A stretch of DNA of 64,000 nt from Syncephalis plumigaleata (taxonomy: Eukaryota; Zoopagomycota; Zoopagomycetes; Zoopagales; Piptocephalidaceae), in contig JAIXMF010000005.1 in assembly GCA_025201365.1 (NCBI GenBank), positions 682,001-746,000 on the forward strand, read 5' to 3'. Of the stretch, positions 13,757 to 63,601 are shown piece after piece (position 1 is the first letter of the stretch; every line of letters begins with the position of its first letter). The notes beneath the pieces are model-generated. The model was not told where the DNA came from. It did not search any database and saw only the letters and a list, made by a program, of their open reading frames with translations. The translations under genes and the position numbers were made by a program.

Positions 13757-14794
13757 CTACAGTGATAACGGTGAGTTTATTAACACAAAATGTAGGTGTA
13801 GTTGTTTTACCAATGACGGTGTGATACTGATGATGATATGATTAATCCTTGACATGTACATCATGAATACCGCAATAAGCCTGCACCCATGGTGAATCGT
13901 TGTCCTAGGTCTGCCGACAATCTTGATGTAGTAATGATGTTCTGGATTCAACTCACCAACCTTAGCCTCGAGCGTGTAATGGATGCCATCATCGGTAAAG
14001 TCCTCATCGTTGACCGCCTCACAAAGAGTCGATACAAATCGATCATGTGGATGCGCGATAATCCATAGTTCTACTATGTATTTAAAGTCTCTATGAGCCA
14101 GTGGACGAGGCACCACCCATGACACATCGAATTCCGAGTGGGATTCAATTTTATCAGGCGACACAATCTCAATGTTTCTTGGACAGAATGGTGGTGGTGG
14201 AACAGGCTCTGGTGGTGGTGGTGGATGTGGCACTGGATGATGATGTGATGGTACCTCGGGACAGTTTACGCCAGCAACACAAGTAGGTCCTGGTGAGGAT
14301 GGACCTGCTTGTTGAACCCCGAGACAATTAACGCCTGTGATGCATGTAGGCCTGGGTAGGAGTGGACCTGGCTGTTGAACGTTATTACAATTGACACCGG
14401 CAATACATGTTGGTCTTGGTAAGAGTGGGCCCGGCTGTTGGATATTATTGCAATTAACACCAGCGATGCAAGTAGGTCTCGGTAAGAGCGGACCCGGTTG
14501 CTGATTGTTGTGGCAGTTAACGCCCGAGATACAACTGGAATCGAATGGCGGTATAAATTGATCCTTGCCTACGTCAGCGCCAGTTGATTGCTTATCGTCA
14601 AGCGGCAATGATTGCGTAGCGTCTGGCTGATCTTGCGGTGCCGGGGTATTGGCTAGTACTTCGCCATTAGGAGATGTCAGCTGGGCTACCGGTGCGGTCG
14701 ATCCTGGTGTGGTTGTGTCCGAAAGAACTTGTGTGGCACAAGCCAATGTCCATAGGAGCAGTATTGAGAAATTGGTAGTAGTACTAGTCCGCAT
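13757..14794 (-). CDS. Secreted cysteine-repeat protein with C-terminal Kre9-like domain
   Basis: The start at 14794 is chosen because it gives signal peptide RTSTTTNFSILLLWTLACAT just after Met; an upstream in-frame Met is less likely. After a Thr/Pro/Gln-rich stretch come five tandem copies of a 21-residue unit (CIAGVNC...QQPGPLLPRPT), then a Pro/His linker. A beta-sandwich-like domain follows, with FDVSWVVPRPLAHRDFKYIV and AKVGELNPEHHYYIKIVG. That resembles the Kre9/KNH-type domain of fungal cell-wall proteins, here at the C-terminus. The annotated frame runs on to 13757, but after about 13.9 kb another frame (SPWVQAYCGIHDVHVKD, stop) looks better, suggesting one missing base. Function is unknown; a cell-wall or adhesive role is inferred. 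Confidence 0.65.
   Translation of the reverse strand: MRTSTTTNFSILLLWTLACATQVLSDTTTPGSTAPVAQLTSPNGEVLANTPAPQDQPDATQSLPLDDKQSTGADVGKDQFIPPFDSSCISGVNCHNNQQPGPLLPRPTCIAGVNCNNIQQPGPLLPRPTCIAGVNCNNVQQPGPLLPRPTCITGVNCLGVQQAGPSSPGPTCVAGVNCPEVPSHHHPVPHPPPPPEPVPPPPFCPRNIEIVSPDKIESHSEFDVSWVVPRPLAHRDFKYIVELWIIAHPHDRFVSTLCEAVNDEDFTDDGIHYTLEAKVGELNPEHHYYIKIVGRPRTTIHHGCRLIAVFMMYMSRINHIIISITPSLVKQLHLHFVLINSPLSL
14262..14530 (-). repeat. 63-bp coding tandem repeat (five copies)
   Basis: Five in-frame 21-codon units, each opening with a Cys-x-x-Gly-Val-Asn-Cys motif. The middle three are closest; the outer two have diverged. The last is partial. Confidence 0.85.
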
Positions 14795-15246
14795 GTTTTT
14801 TTTACTAAGATAAAGATGATTATACAAGGTAAGAATGGTAAGTTGTCCGCTATTCCAGGCGGGCTTTATGTACTAGTTCTGCGACAGAATCGGCCAATAC
14901 TACAAAACATATAGGTCGTTGATATGTTTTAGTATCGATAGGGTAAACATGCGGAATTGATTGATCTGTCATTAGTTTAGGATGTTTGAGTAGATTTAAA
15001 CACAAACAAATGGAGGCAAGCTGTTGTCGTCATTCATGCCGCACTCAAACCGTATCACTGGCAAGTACATAGTAAGATAGCAGTCGATTATACAGAATAG
15101 ATAATAGCGTAATATTTGGATCATAATAAGCACATGTGAAACATAGCATTGTAAATGATAAAGGATTGTATGACCATTTATTAGCATACTACCACATCAC
15201 ATATTGTAATTAGGTCGGCATTTTGTAAGCATATAATAACTGCTGT

Positions 15247-32261: not shown

Positions 32262-34432
32262 TAACCCCCTCCAGCATTCGCCTCATCGTCCCGATTGCGA
32301 ATGCTATCACGCTCGTAGCGACACCAGGTCGTACAATACGCAATATATATACTCAATGGCAACACTATCTTGCCCAATCTACTGCAATGTAAAAACGGCA
32401 CCTCGCCAAAGCGATTCAAATTAATGTCGAGTTAAATCATCGTTCTTCGTCGTAAGTGGGTGATCAGTCCACTTGTAATTTCAGGTAACGATAATTTACA
32501 GACATAACAGAGTATAAACTAAAAAAAATCACAGGCCACAAAACGAGTAGGGCCACAGTTAACCGCGCGTAGCCAATACACTACGCGTATCCGCGATATG
32601 TTATCACAAGTCGTAACATATAAAATCATGATTGTACCATCTTGACAATCCAAACGTACTCGCGCATTCTCATGAGATAATCTGTCCATCCCTACTAATA
32701 CGGGTTACAGCACCATGCCGAGTCTACGTTTCTAACTAGCTGAAACACTAGCGGCTTTCCTTTCCAGCACGCAGTCTCCTCGAAATTGGATACTTTACTA
32801 TCCACTAACCGTACCTGCGAACCAACATTTTTCACCACAAATGCGAAGACAAACGTTTCACATTCATTAACTATGAGGGCGGTATGCTGAGCTCCGGTGA
32901 CCGGTAACATCCATATCCGCATCCTGCCGATACTGCCGTTAACAAATGATACGCCGTGGCTAGGGGCGTAGGTTGTAATAGCGACCGAAGAGTTGGATTA
33001 AATACAGGTGAGTGCTATGTCCTCATCAACCGTCTAACCTTCCGTATCCGCATACTATCGATACAACTGTTAACAAGTTATACGCCGTGGCTAAGGGCGT
33101 AAGTTGTAATAGTGACCGAAGAATTGGATTAACTACAGGTGAGTGCGATGTCCTCACCAACCATCTAATTTTCTACTGCGTAATTCTTCCACTTCAAACC
33201 TTGGAGAAGAGTATTTTCCACCATTACAAAATCTTCTTCAGAATAAACGATACTTTTACGCTTCCTATTATATCGTGCAGACTAACGTTGTTGTACCTCA
33301 ATAATTATAATAGCTGTGCACTGACTAACATCTTCCAAGCGTCATTATAATTCTCCAATGTACACACTATATTCTTCTCGTTTCCGTACGTGTCGTATTC
33401 CTACGGGTCGAACACCTTTGTCGGCAGCGCCAAGCAGTTGACGAGCTTCCTGACCATACAAAAGATGAGAAGGTGAGTGACCGGTAGAAGTTTGTGTCGT
33501 AGTTCGATAGGCGAATAACAAGTGTGATATATAATCGTCCTAATCATTTCCTTGTTGGTTAACAAACGTTACCAGCATACTAGCTAATGTCTTGTTGAAC
33601 CGTTCCACCAGAAATGGGTCTTTAAAAATTGAACTGCTGTAGGTGCTAAGGGATCAGAAATCGTAACTGCTTCGATCCATCAGGTAACGTAATCGGCACA
33701 AGCAGCTACATATCAATTTCCATTTTCCGTACGTTCGAAGGGACCGACGAGGTCGATAACTATAAGGTCGAAAGGTCGCTCTGGGACGAGAATAGACTAC
33801 AATAATCCAGATCGTATAGTGCGTCCACATAATCAACCACAGGTTAAACAGGGCATAACATAATCGTGAACATCTCGGGAGACAGAGGGCTACCAGTATC
33901 CTTGTTGAATACGAGCGAGTGTTTTACCGGCACCCATATGACCAACAATTGGTGTGTCGTGATTATGATATAAAACTGTAGATCGGTAACGAGCGGACAC
34001 AACATCTGATAAAACGTTATCTTGTTTCTTCCTCTTTGCTATCCTGAATGAACGACCTTCTTGCTGATTATCATCCTCGATTGCGATGTGAGATAGTCAT
34101 CAGTATCTCCTCTTGAAACTCATTGAATCATCTGCCATCCATGATACGATAACCGAGTACAGATCGATTCCGAAGTCGGCTTCACTTCGTCGTTCACTTC
34201 TCCGTTTACTTCTTCCTGGGTGTCGGTGAATGGATCTTGTGACTCTTCCAATTCACTAATGGGCTGACATCCCCATAACTGTTTCACCTTGCGGTTTAAC
34301 ATGCTTCGTTAAGTTGTCGTAAAAATGCGAGTGTAATGAAAATACAAACAGGGAAATATATTCACACATATATGTATAAGTATTAATGCAGAATAAACGT
34401 ATTAGAGTGCCACGCCCGGGTTCTCCACCAAA

Positions 34433-44485: not shown

Positions 44486-45646
44486 ATGAAGTTCTCTGCC
44501 ATTATCGCTATTGCCGTCGCCGTTGTCGCTGTCGCCAGTCTGGTCGCCGTTGAAGCTAGTCCCGTCCTGGATCGTCGTGGTATGTCTGGCCGTGACCCTA
44601 TCAATTGATGTACTAATTGTAGTCTATTGTTTCATTGTCTACCGATGATTACCGATAGCTCGTAAGCTCATGTGTATCAAATGGTTGTTTTGACATGTTA
44701 ATCACACTATAATGTTTATTATACCTATTAATTTGTTAATAATAGCTGGTAAGTTATCCTATTAACCATAACAAGTACTATGCTAACAGTAGTATACATC
44801 AAAATTATATGTGACTACTATTCCAAGATCATGTAGGTTATAATATAATTGTAATGGGCAGCGCACTAACCACAATACCCCATGTAACCTATATGCTCCT
44901 GTATGTTAGCATGTAAGCTACTATTATGACTGCAGCAAGCGAGGCACTAACCATACTATGACATATGATCTACGTATGTTTCTGTATGTTAGCATGTAAG
45001 CTACTATTCTGACTGCAGCAAGCGAGGCACTAACCATACTATGACATACGATCCATTTATGTTCCTGTATGATAGGGTGTAAGTCATTATTTTGATCGTA
45101 ATAAATGATACACTAATCATGCTATGGCTCATGATCCACGTATGTTTGTGTATAACAGCATGTAAGTCATTATTCTGACCTTAATGAACGTGGTACTAAC
45201 TATAGTATGGCACATGATCCACGTATGTTCCTGTATGCTAGCATGTAAGTTACCATTCTGATTGCAATGCATGGTTGTGCTAACCACGCTATGGCTCATG
45301 ATCCATTTATGTTCCTGTATGATAGGGTGTAAGTCATTACTCTGGTTGTAATGAATGATACACTAACCACGCTATGGCTCATGATCCATTTATGTTCCTG
45401 TATGATAGGGTGTAAGTCATTATTTTGATCGTAATAAATGATACACTAATCATGCTATGGCTCATGATCCACGTATGTTTGTGTATAACAGCATGTAAGT
45501 CATTATTCTGACCTTAATGAACGTGGTACTAACTATAGTATGGCACATGATCCACGTATGTTCCTGTACGATAGCACGTAAATTACCATTCTAGTTGTTA
45601 CCTATGAGGCGCTAATCACATATGAATTATTATATTTCTACAGTGA
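44486..45646 (+). CDS. Predicted secreted His/Gly-rich peptide encoded by an array of single-codon micro-exons
   Basis: Exon 1 (44486-44579) encodes signal peptide MKFSAIIAIAVAVVAVASLV then EASPVLDRR, a dibasic Kex2-like site, and ends in codon phase 1. Twelve micro-exons follow. Their bases and positions are CTC 44659, CTG 44746, ATCAT 44828, CAT 44910, CAT 44993, GGT 45076, CAT 45159, CAT 45242, GGT 45326, GGT 45409, CAT 45492 and CAC 45575 (first base given). A 12-nt exon begins TGA at 45644, and the last exon starts at 45708 with AATAAA at 45856. Introns of 66-84 nt have GTAAG, GTATG, GTAGG or GTAAA donors, an AG, and CTAAC/CTAAT (TTAAT once) about 33-41 nt in. Splicing gives a 44-residue product ending APDHHHGHHGGHH. 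Skipping the 5-nt exon instead leads to another open tail ending EQDKDIIK; skipping everything does too. Role unknown; metal binding is a guess from composition. Confidence 0.6.
44828..45643 (+). repeat. 83-bp tandem repeat, each unit an intron plus 3-nt exon
   Basis: Unit period is 83 bp (once 84), measured between successive AG|NNN|GTAAG cores from 44910 to 45577, with degenerate units at both ends. Units 45079-45241 and 45412-45574 are nearly identical, 333 bp apart, showing a later block duplication of four units. Recognisable words are CACTAAC, ATGATCCACGTATGTT and CTGTATG. Confidence 0.9.
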
Positions 45647-45869
45647 CATTAAGCGGTAGGTAATAATCCACAATGATCATAGCCATACTAATCCATTATG
45701 ATTACAGAGCAAGACAAGGACATCATCAAGTAGATATTATAGGTATTCAAGTCAAGAATGGATTGGTGCAAGACCCTCATTTAGTGTCCATACCATTCAA
45801 GTCATTATTCCTTGGATCAAGAAATATATCTACAAGATCATTCAAGCATTCATTGAATAAATCTATGTG

Positions 45870-63516: not shown

Positions 63517-63601
<85 letters not shown>

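Follow-up and report, generated by a model that had tools for sequence, protein, structure and literature searches.

Predicted single-codon exon arrays in a large family of putative secreted-peptide genes of Syncephalis plumigaleata

The locus and its predicted gene

The stretch of DNA analysed here (the window, 64,000 nucleotides of the Syncephalis plumigaleata genome) carries on its forward strand a gene whose predicted coding sequence is divided into a signal-peptide exon and a series of micro-exons, most of them three nucleotides long (Table 1). NCBI places the source in the Zoopagomycota, Zoopagales, and Syncephalis is called mycoparasitic in the accessible text of one report (PMC10386755). 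The 13 introns that precede the stop are 66–84 nt long and have GT..AG ends, with a CTAAC or CTAAT branch site in 12 of the 13 and TTAAT in the other one. Joined in order, the exons would encode the signal peptide followed by APDHHHGHHGGHH, and then a stop. The preliminary description of this locus had listed exon 1, the introns, the micro-exons, the branch sites and the TGA, and all of them are present where it had placed them. It had also ended the array at the TGA; that codon is there, but it opens a thirteenth exon of 12 nt, which is followed by an intron in the 3′UTR.

Table 1. Layout of the predicted small-secreted-peptide gene in the window, with the tandem repeat that it contains
Feature	Position	Strand	Remarks
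Small-secreted-peptide gene	44486-45860	+	signal-peptide exon, 12 micro-exons, 12-nt stop exon, 52-nt intron, 3′ exon
Exon 1	44486..44579	+	signal peptide MKFSAIIAIAVAVVAVASLVAVEASPVLDRR, then the G that starts the following codon; ends ...DRR, then G
Intron 1	44580..44658	+	79 nt, GTATGT donor, CTAAT branch A 44616
Micro-exon 1 CTC	44659..44661	+	phase 1
Micro-exon 2 CTG	44746..44748	+	phase 1
Micro-exon 3 ATCAT	44828..44832	+	5 nt; phase 1 to 0
Micro-exon 4 CAT (His)	44910..44912	+	
Micro-exon 5 CAT (His)	44993..44995	+	
Micro-exon 6 GGT (Gly)	45076..45078	+	
Micro-exon 7 CAT (His)	45159..45161	+	
Micro-exon 8 CAT (His)	45242..45244	+	
Micro-exon 9 GGT (Gly)	45326..45328	+	
Micro-exon 10 GGT (Gly)	45409..45411	+	
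Micro-exon 11 CAT (His)	45492..45494	+	
Micro-exon 12 CAC (His)	45575..45577	+	
Last coding exon TGACATTAAGCG	45644..45655	+	12 nt; in-frame TGA, then family TAA in conserved TAAGC[AG]^GT
3′UTR intron	45656..45707	+	52 nt
3′ untranslated exon AGCAAGACAAGGACATCATCAAG...	45708..45860 (end provisional)	+	family-conserved
83-bp tandem repeat	44892..45592	+	copied intron+codon units, ~8.4 copies

Taken by itself, the window is weak evidence for such a gene, because an 83-bp repeat would on its own copy the string AG-CAT-GTAAG. Most of the units are tandem 83-bp copies, and therefore splicing and copying are inseparable from the window alone; introns 1, 3 and 13 score 5.4, 7.5 and 13.7, vs 20–33 for the others. 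The same stretch could be read as a minisatellite inside one long intron, in which exon 1 joins downstream exons only and the recurrent AG-NNN-GTAAG is a by-product of tandem copying. The exclusion of chance rests on the gene family and not on the window copy.

Elsewhere in the window, an ORF on the reverse strand (13757-14827) has a hydrophobic N-terminus and a tandem repeat of 63 bp, whose units encode C(I/V)(A/T)GVNC...PGP, and may be another repetitive secreted protein. The window also contains a perfect CAT repeat of 28 copies (63517-63601) and a tandem duplication of 131 bp with 86% matches (32910-33168).

A genome-wide family of arrays

The gene in the window belongs to a large family, of which it is a modest example. 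Across the assembly (32.6 Mb, 383 contigs), exon 1 has at least 150 scored matches among 173 candidates, near-identical duplicate loci counted in. Forty of the best 44 matches were fetched with their downstream DNA, the others being the window itself and three loci cut by contig ends (C274, C130, C189); none of the remaining 106 of the 150 was deliberately sampled. The 40 loci hold 42 copies of exon 1, of which 32 have a donor directly after exon 1 (30 from the main set, plus L046 and L048, which stayed outside the chaining) and 10 read on without one and are called intronless here. A hydrophobic signal-like segment is encoded by exon 1 in the 40 listed copies of the fetched loci, as judged by eye. 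Among six near-identical locus pairs that were compared, several combine a long and a short contig, and such pairs may be haplotypes.

Exons were chained by dynamic programming on donor, branch, acceptor and intron length, together with an exon-length prior that favours 3 nt, then 2 and 5; AG and GT were obligatory, while donor, branch and acceptor were scored. This gave chains for 31 array genes, 20 of which attain the family last exon and 11 of which are incomplete (L009, L013, L014, L015, L019, L020, L021, L031, L038, L042 and L043). Removal of five near-identical copies left 15 complete non-redundant genes with 10–49 exons per chain; in all, 334 of their internal exons measure 3 nt and 30 others measure 2, 5, 6, 9 or 12 nt. 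The longest chain, L026, has 49 exons after exon 1, including 45 consecutive phase-0 single codons that read CNPINGSMDYVYWKPIVPGYWGPINPGLCCYRTPSMEKEECAPEK. Thus the array seen in the preliminary description stands, but its scale had been understated, since arrays reach 45 single-codon exons, exon 1 recurs at the number of places given above, and the encoded sequences extend well beyond His and Gly.

The introns between 3-nt exons (431 unique) are uniform in layout. Their commonest length is 80 nt (149 introns), and a branch motif is present in 424 of them (CTAAT 252 times, CTAAC 108 times), its branch A lying most often 37 nt from the donor (200 of 424) and 43 nt from the intron end. When the same chain finder was applied to both strands of the remaining window sequence, or antisense to the 15 genes, it made at most one intron-exon step in each case.

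Genome-wide, the pattern GTAAG-N62-80-AG-NNN-GTAAG occurs at no fewer than 2795 places, vs 404 for a reversed-pattern control; with a 4-nt exon it occurs at 108 places vs 539 for the control, and the reversed pattern is therefore a rough and poorly matched control. Three donors in a row were found 2029 times (control 11). A permissive filter on the fetched loci (29 loci, with 7 near-identical copies removed) returned 469 sites with a 3-nt exon vs 0 with 4 nt, while exons of 1, 2, 5, 6, 7, 8 and 9 nt gave 28, 31, 22, 12, 7, 7 and 33 sites. Two of the 469 sites hold a stop triplet, one of which (in L049) is a misreading that overlaps a real donor.

Other forms of the architecture were also noted. 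L049 (G000:C1:1410900-1417800, reverse strand) represents a second array type, in which the chain is very long, the introns have diverged further and the 3′ exon is the same, and its characteristic TAT-exon units recur at 20 or more places. L050 (G000:C1:2255400-2257200, forward strand) has, by eye, about five short exons, several of them 3 nt, behind a different signal peptide (MKFSVVIIVAFVMAMAIIMSSADATPVAA...), and the architecture is therefore not limited to one exon 1. In L051 (G000:C1:1383200-1385000, reverse strand), also an array gene, exon 1 seems broken by small indels, perhaps as a pseudogene or through assembly errors.

Coding signatures, reading frame and intronless relatives

The bases of the 3-nt exons are uninformative, with 0.03, 0.05 and 0.10 bits at the three positions (n = 334); the neighbouring GTAAGT has 1.5–2.0 bits per base, although splice-site information is high partly by construction because sites were picked by score. 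The triplets nevertheless avoid stops. Among 310 phase-0 single-codon exons there is one stop (TGA in L022), whereas 22.3 would be expected at the rate seen in intron triplets and 9.8 at the base composition of the exons themselves, for a nominal probability of about 2e-9 if independence is assumed. These units are mostly not recent copies of one another: the 310 form 292 clusters at 85% identity of the flanking introns, with 1 stop in 299 codon-cluster pairs. A similar contrast is seen throughout the genome, where exons reading TAA or TAG occur at 10 places (control 107) and those reading TAT or TAC at 100 (control 10); copies of two L049-type units account for about half of the TAT/TAC places.

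The frame is kept as well. A micro-exon with a length of 2 modulo 3 moves the phase from 1 to 0, in third position in 13 of the 15 chains, in second position in L028 and in seventh position in L022. The TAA of TAAGC[AG] is then read in frame in all 15 complete non-redundant chains, with an earlier in-frame stop in the window gene and L022 (TGA) and in L034 (TAA). A last exon of two nucleotides (CA/CG) joined to a translated 3′ exon (...QEWIG..., ...VIIPW...) was also considered and ruled out, because the exon is longer (NNN...TAAGCA) with its TAA in frame in 15 of 15, and because intronless copies stop before the 3′ exon.

Pyrimidine-ending codons have a share of 0.68 in the micro-exons and 0.67 in seven intronless bodies, vs 0.50 in eight window ORFs and 0.53 in introns. 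Codon usage alone is not strand-specific, because the reverse complements of the micro-codons are as CDS-like as the codons (0.494 vs 0.447 bits) and likewise include few stops (1 in 310; in window ORFs the figure is 4.6%). Within the six near-identical pairs, exons differ at 4 of 603 positions and intron interiors at 107 of 10611, a comparison with no power to detect selection.

Upstream, the 10 intronless copies find their best matches among array genes at 76–90% identity over 71–200 nt. The residues ...DRR-APQE are contiguous in intronless L017, as in spliced L011, and ...DRR-APQF in L045, as in spliced L009, so that AP, APQE and APQF are uninterrupted in intronless paralogues and are formed across the first junctions in array genes; the match covers the first two or three junctions and not the single-codon part. 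At the other end, the 3′UTR junction TAAGCA^A[AG]CAAGAC is already joined in L017 and L023, two of the eight distinct intronless copies, and is unclear in the others. Such joined copies fit either never having had introns or having lost them via spliced RNA. When the spliced string of L011 was searched against the genome, no intronless copy of it was found, a result that says little.

These observations are difficult to reconcile with a minisatellite in one long intron. The triplet enclosed by AG and GT varies freely but tends not to spell a stop, TAR and TAY exons contrast genome-wide, the frame reaches a shared TAA in every complete non-redundant chain, the flanking introns of most units have diverged, and intronless paralogues hold the residues of the first spliced junctions. 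Although the window units are tandem copies and two of the public models discussed below (P0003 and P0012) include no micro-exon, we consider this explanation very improbable.

Three protein searches returned 13 public proteins, of which the 12 with a source name are all from S. plumigaleata. By longest common subsequence, P0006 follows 40 of the 45 phase-0 exons of L026 and P0007 follows 38 of the 41 of L010. P0006 skips five exons, of which four have non-GTAAG donors (three GTAGG and one GTAAA), and it includes one exon with GTACG and one with GTAGA; the skips fit either prediction or real skipping. P0002 has seven codons of L012 and then reads through an intron. The public models, which may be ab initio, are not proof, because P0003 and P0012 run into intron 1, and because P0004, P0008 and P0009 have an extra predicted intron that deletes the stop of an intronless copy and leads to C-termini of the ...QEWIG/...VIIPW type. 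None of the 13 returned proteins is a model with the His/Gly tail of the window gene, and the search for the L032 product brought up no model that tracks its array.

The predicted tails are very diverse in composition and length, for example His/Gly in the window gene, Lys/Ala in L047 and Gly/Leu in L020. A C-Xn-CC-Xm-C pattern recurs in L012, L026, L027 and L044, that is, in 4 of the 15 complete non-redundant chains, and also in L021, while no Pfam family was found for any of six products at E<=1. It might be supposed from this diversity, and from the existence of family members with no introns after exon 1, that the micro-exons are spliced but noisily, with incidental peptides and with arrays that serve expression through intron-mediated enhancement or decay control. 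Stop avoidance, the kept frame and the recurrent cysteine pattern point instead to selection on the product, and we regard noisy inclusion as improbable.

How the arrays arose is a separate matter. Introner-like mobile introns might have been inserted between the codons of once-intronless genes, which would agree with the uniform intron size and with intronless paralogues that share homologous upstream sequence, and which is compatible with a coding function of the arrays. Duplication of whole units is favoured over such insertion by the visible 83-bp tandem array and by L042 and L043, two similar genes between which entire intron+codon units of the listed arrays are gained or missing (judged without alignment); an introner-like origin therefore seems unlikely, less so than the two alternatives above. 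L042 and L043 are near-copies, one of them on a short contig, and this suggests allelic length variation of the peptide.

Proposed splicing, precedents and significance

Taken together, we consider it very probable from the genomic sequence that translated single-codon exon arrays are real. Their architecture, the size of the family, the coding signatures and the frame are established, and it appears that numerous small secreted peptides of S. plumigaleata are encoded by genes that give almost each residue its own 3-base exon. The preliminary description had proposed codon-by-codon splicing, and this model gains strong comparative support from stop avoidance, from the frame that leads to a shared stop and from the uninformative exon bases; it is also matched by the intronless paralogues at the first junctions and by public gene models with dozens of exons. 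We infer that every exon is spliced.

In the mechanism that we propose, the mature part of the peptide would be encoded one codon per exon behind the signal-peptide exon, with each 3-nt exon riding on a module of about 83 bp, made of an 80-nt intron and one codon. Under intron definition, the intron is recognised as a unit. Exons of 3 nt make exon definition seem impossible, and therefore each intron would have to be recognised in this way, with the exon itself contributing no signal; the spliceosome would rely on a GTAAGT donor, which is strong, on a CTAAY branch site some 37 nt after it and on an AG roughly 43 nt past the branch. Because the complexes assembled at the donor and acceptor of neighbouring introns would overlap, removal is probably sequential. 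The frame would be set by an exon of 5 or 2 nt near the start of the chain, and the TAAGC[AG] exon with its stop would end the chain. Probably small and secreted, the products may be peptides of the mycoparasite that evolve fast and act on the host fungus or on competitors.

The modular layout has possible consequences for diversity. Since each codon would be a separate phase-0 module, recombination in introns can add, delete or swap residues with no frameshift, and such frame-neutral gain, loss and exchange of modules could diversify a large family. Skipping of any unit would likewise be frame-neutral, and isoform sets are therefore possible. It is conceivable, though we hold this only tentatively, that residues act as skippable cassettes in a genome with thousands of single-codon exons, giving combinatorial peptide sets together with codon-by-codon diversification by intron recombination.

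The closest analogues are two kinds of animal genes, both of which have in common with the arrays the layout of a fast-evolving, secreted parasite protein encoded in micro-exons, although neither is described as single-codon in the accessible text of the two reports (PMC4671649, PMC9168663). Schistosome MEGs encode small secreted parasite proteins, with the signal peptide mostly in a longer 5′ exon and with a centre, flanked by longer exons, that is made mostly of micro-exons (<36 bp), 26 of 33 of which are symmetrical in MEGs 26-32, as far as the consulted parts of that source describe them (PMC4671649). The arrays here are alike in the signal peptide carried by a longer 5′ exon (by eye in 40 copies) and in a centre of exons mostly divisible by 3 (334 of 3 nt and 30 other, as predicted). 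They differ from MEGs in their tandem units and in one exon 1 with its at least 150 matches; in the portions of the source available, MEG exons are not uniformly one codon. Schistosomes belong to another kingdom, and the likeness described here is one of architecture. Aphid bicycle genes are described in the available text as putative effectors that evolve rapidly and whose internal exons, many of them unusually small, share one phase, and a megacycle gene has more than 100 microexons (PMC9168663). According to the same text, bicycle internal exons nearly all start in phase 2, whereas the arrays here are in phase 0 after the shift exon; bicycle genes, too, belong to another kingdom, and the likeness is again described for architecture.

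Among fungi, the accessible parts of several reports describe a 1-nt exon of Fusarium CYP621A, two 3-nt exons in a lipS gene (PMC12940212, PMC5639578) and one switch microexon in Trichoderma Xlr2 (PMC11121469). In what these sources present, fungal genes can carry exons of 1–3 nt, as here, but there are one or two per gene and no arrays. Zero-nucleotide recursive splice sites, in which an acceptor adjoins a donor within an intron (AG^GU), are reported for long introns in the available text of another source (PMC13149111); as described there, nothing lies between AG and GU, whereas here 3 nt lie between AG and GT and the introns are about 80 nt long. No description of single-codon exon arrays was found in the open-access literature that we searched, as far as its text was accessible.

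If the arrays are translated as proposed, splicing would act on single-codon exons dozens of times in succession and thousands of times over in a single genome, near the limit of how finely genes can be split. They would test the recognition of exons with no sequence information of their own, and whether neighbouring introns that share a 3-nt exon need ordered removal. They would also mean that many secreted peptides of S. plumigaleata are absent or wrong in current gene models, and would bear on how parasites of separate kingdoms have put fast-evolving secreted proteins in micro-exon genes.
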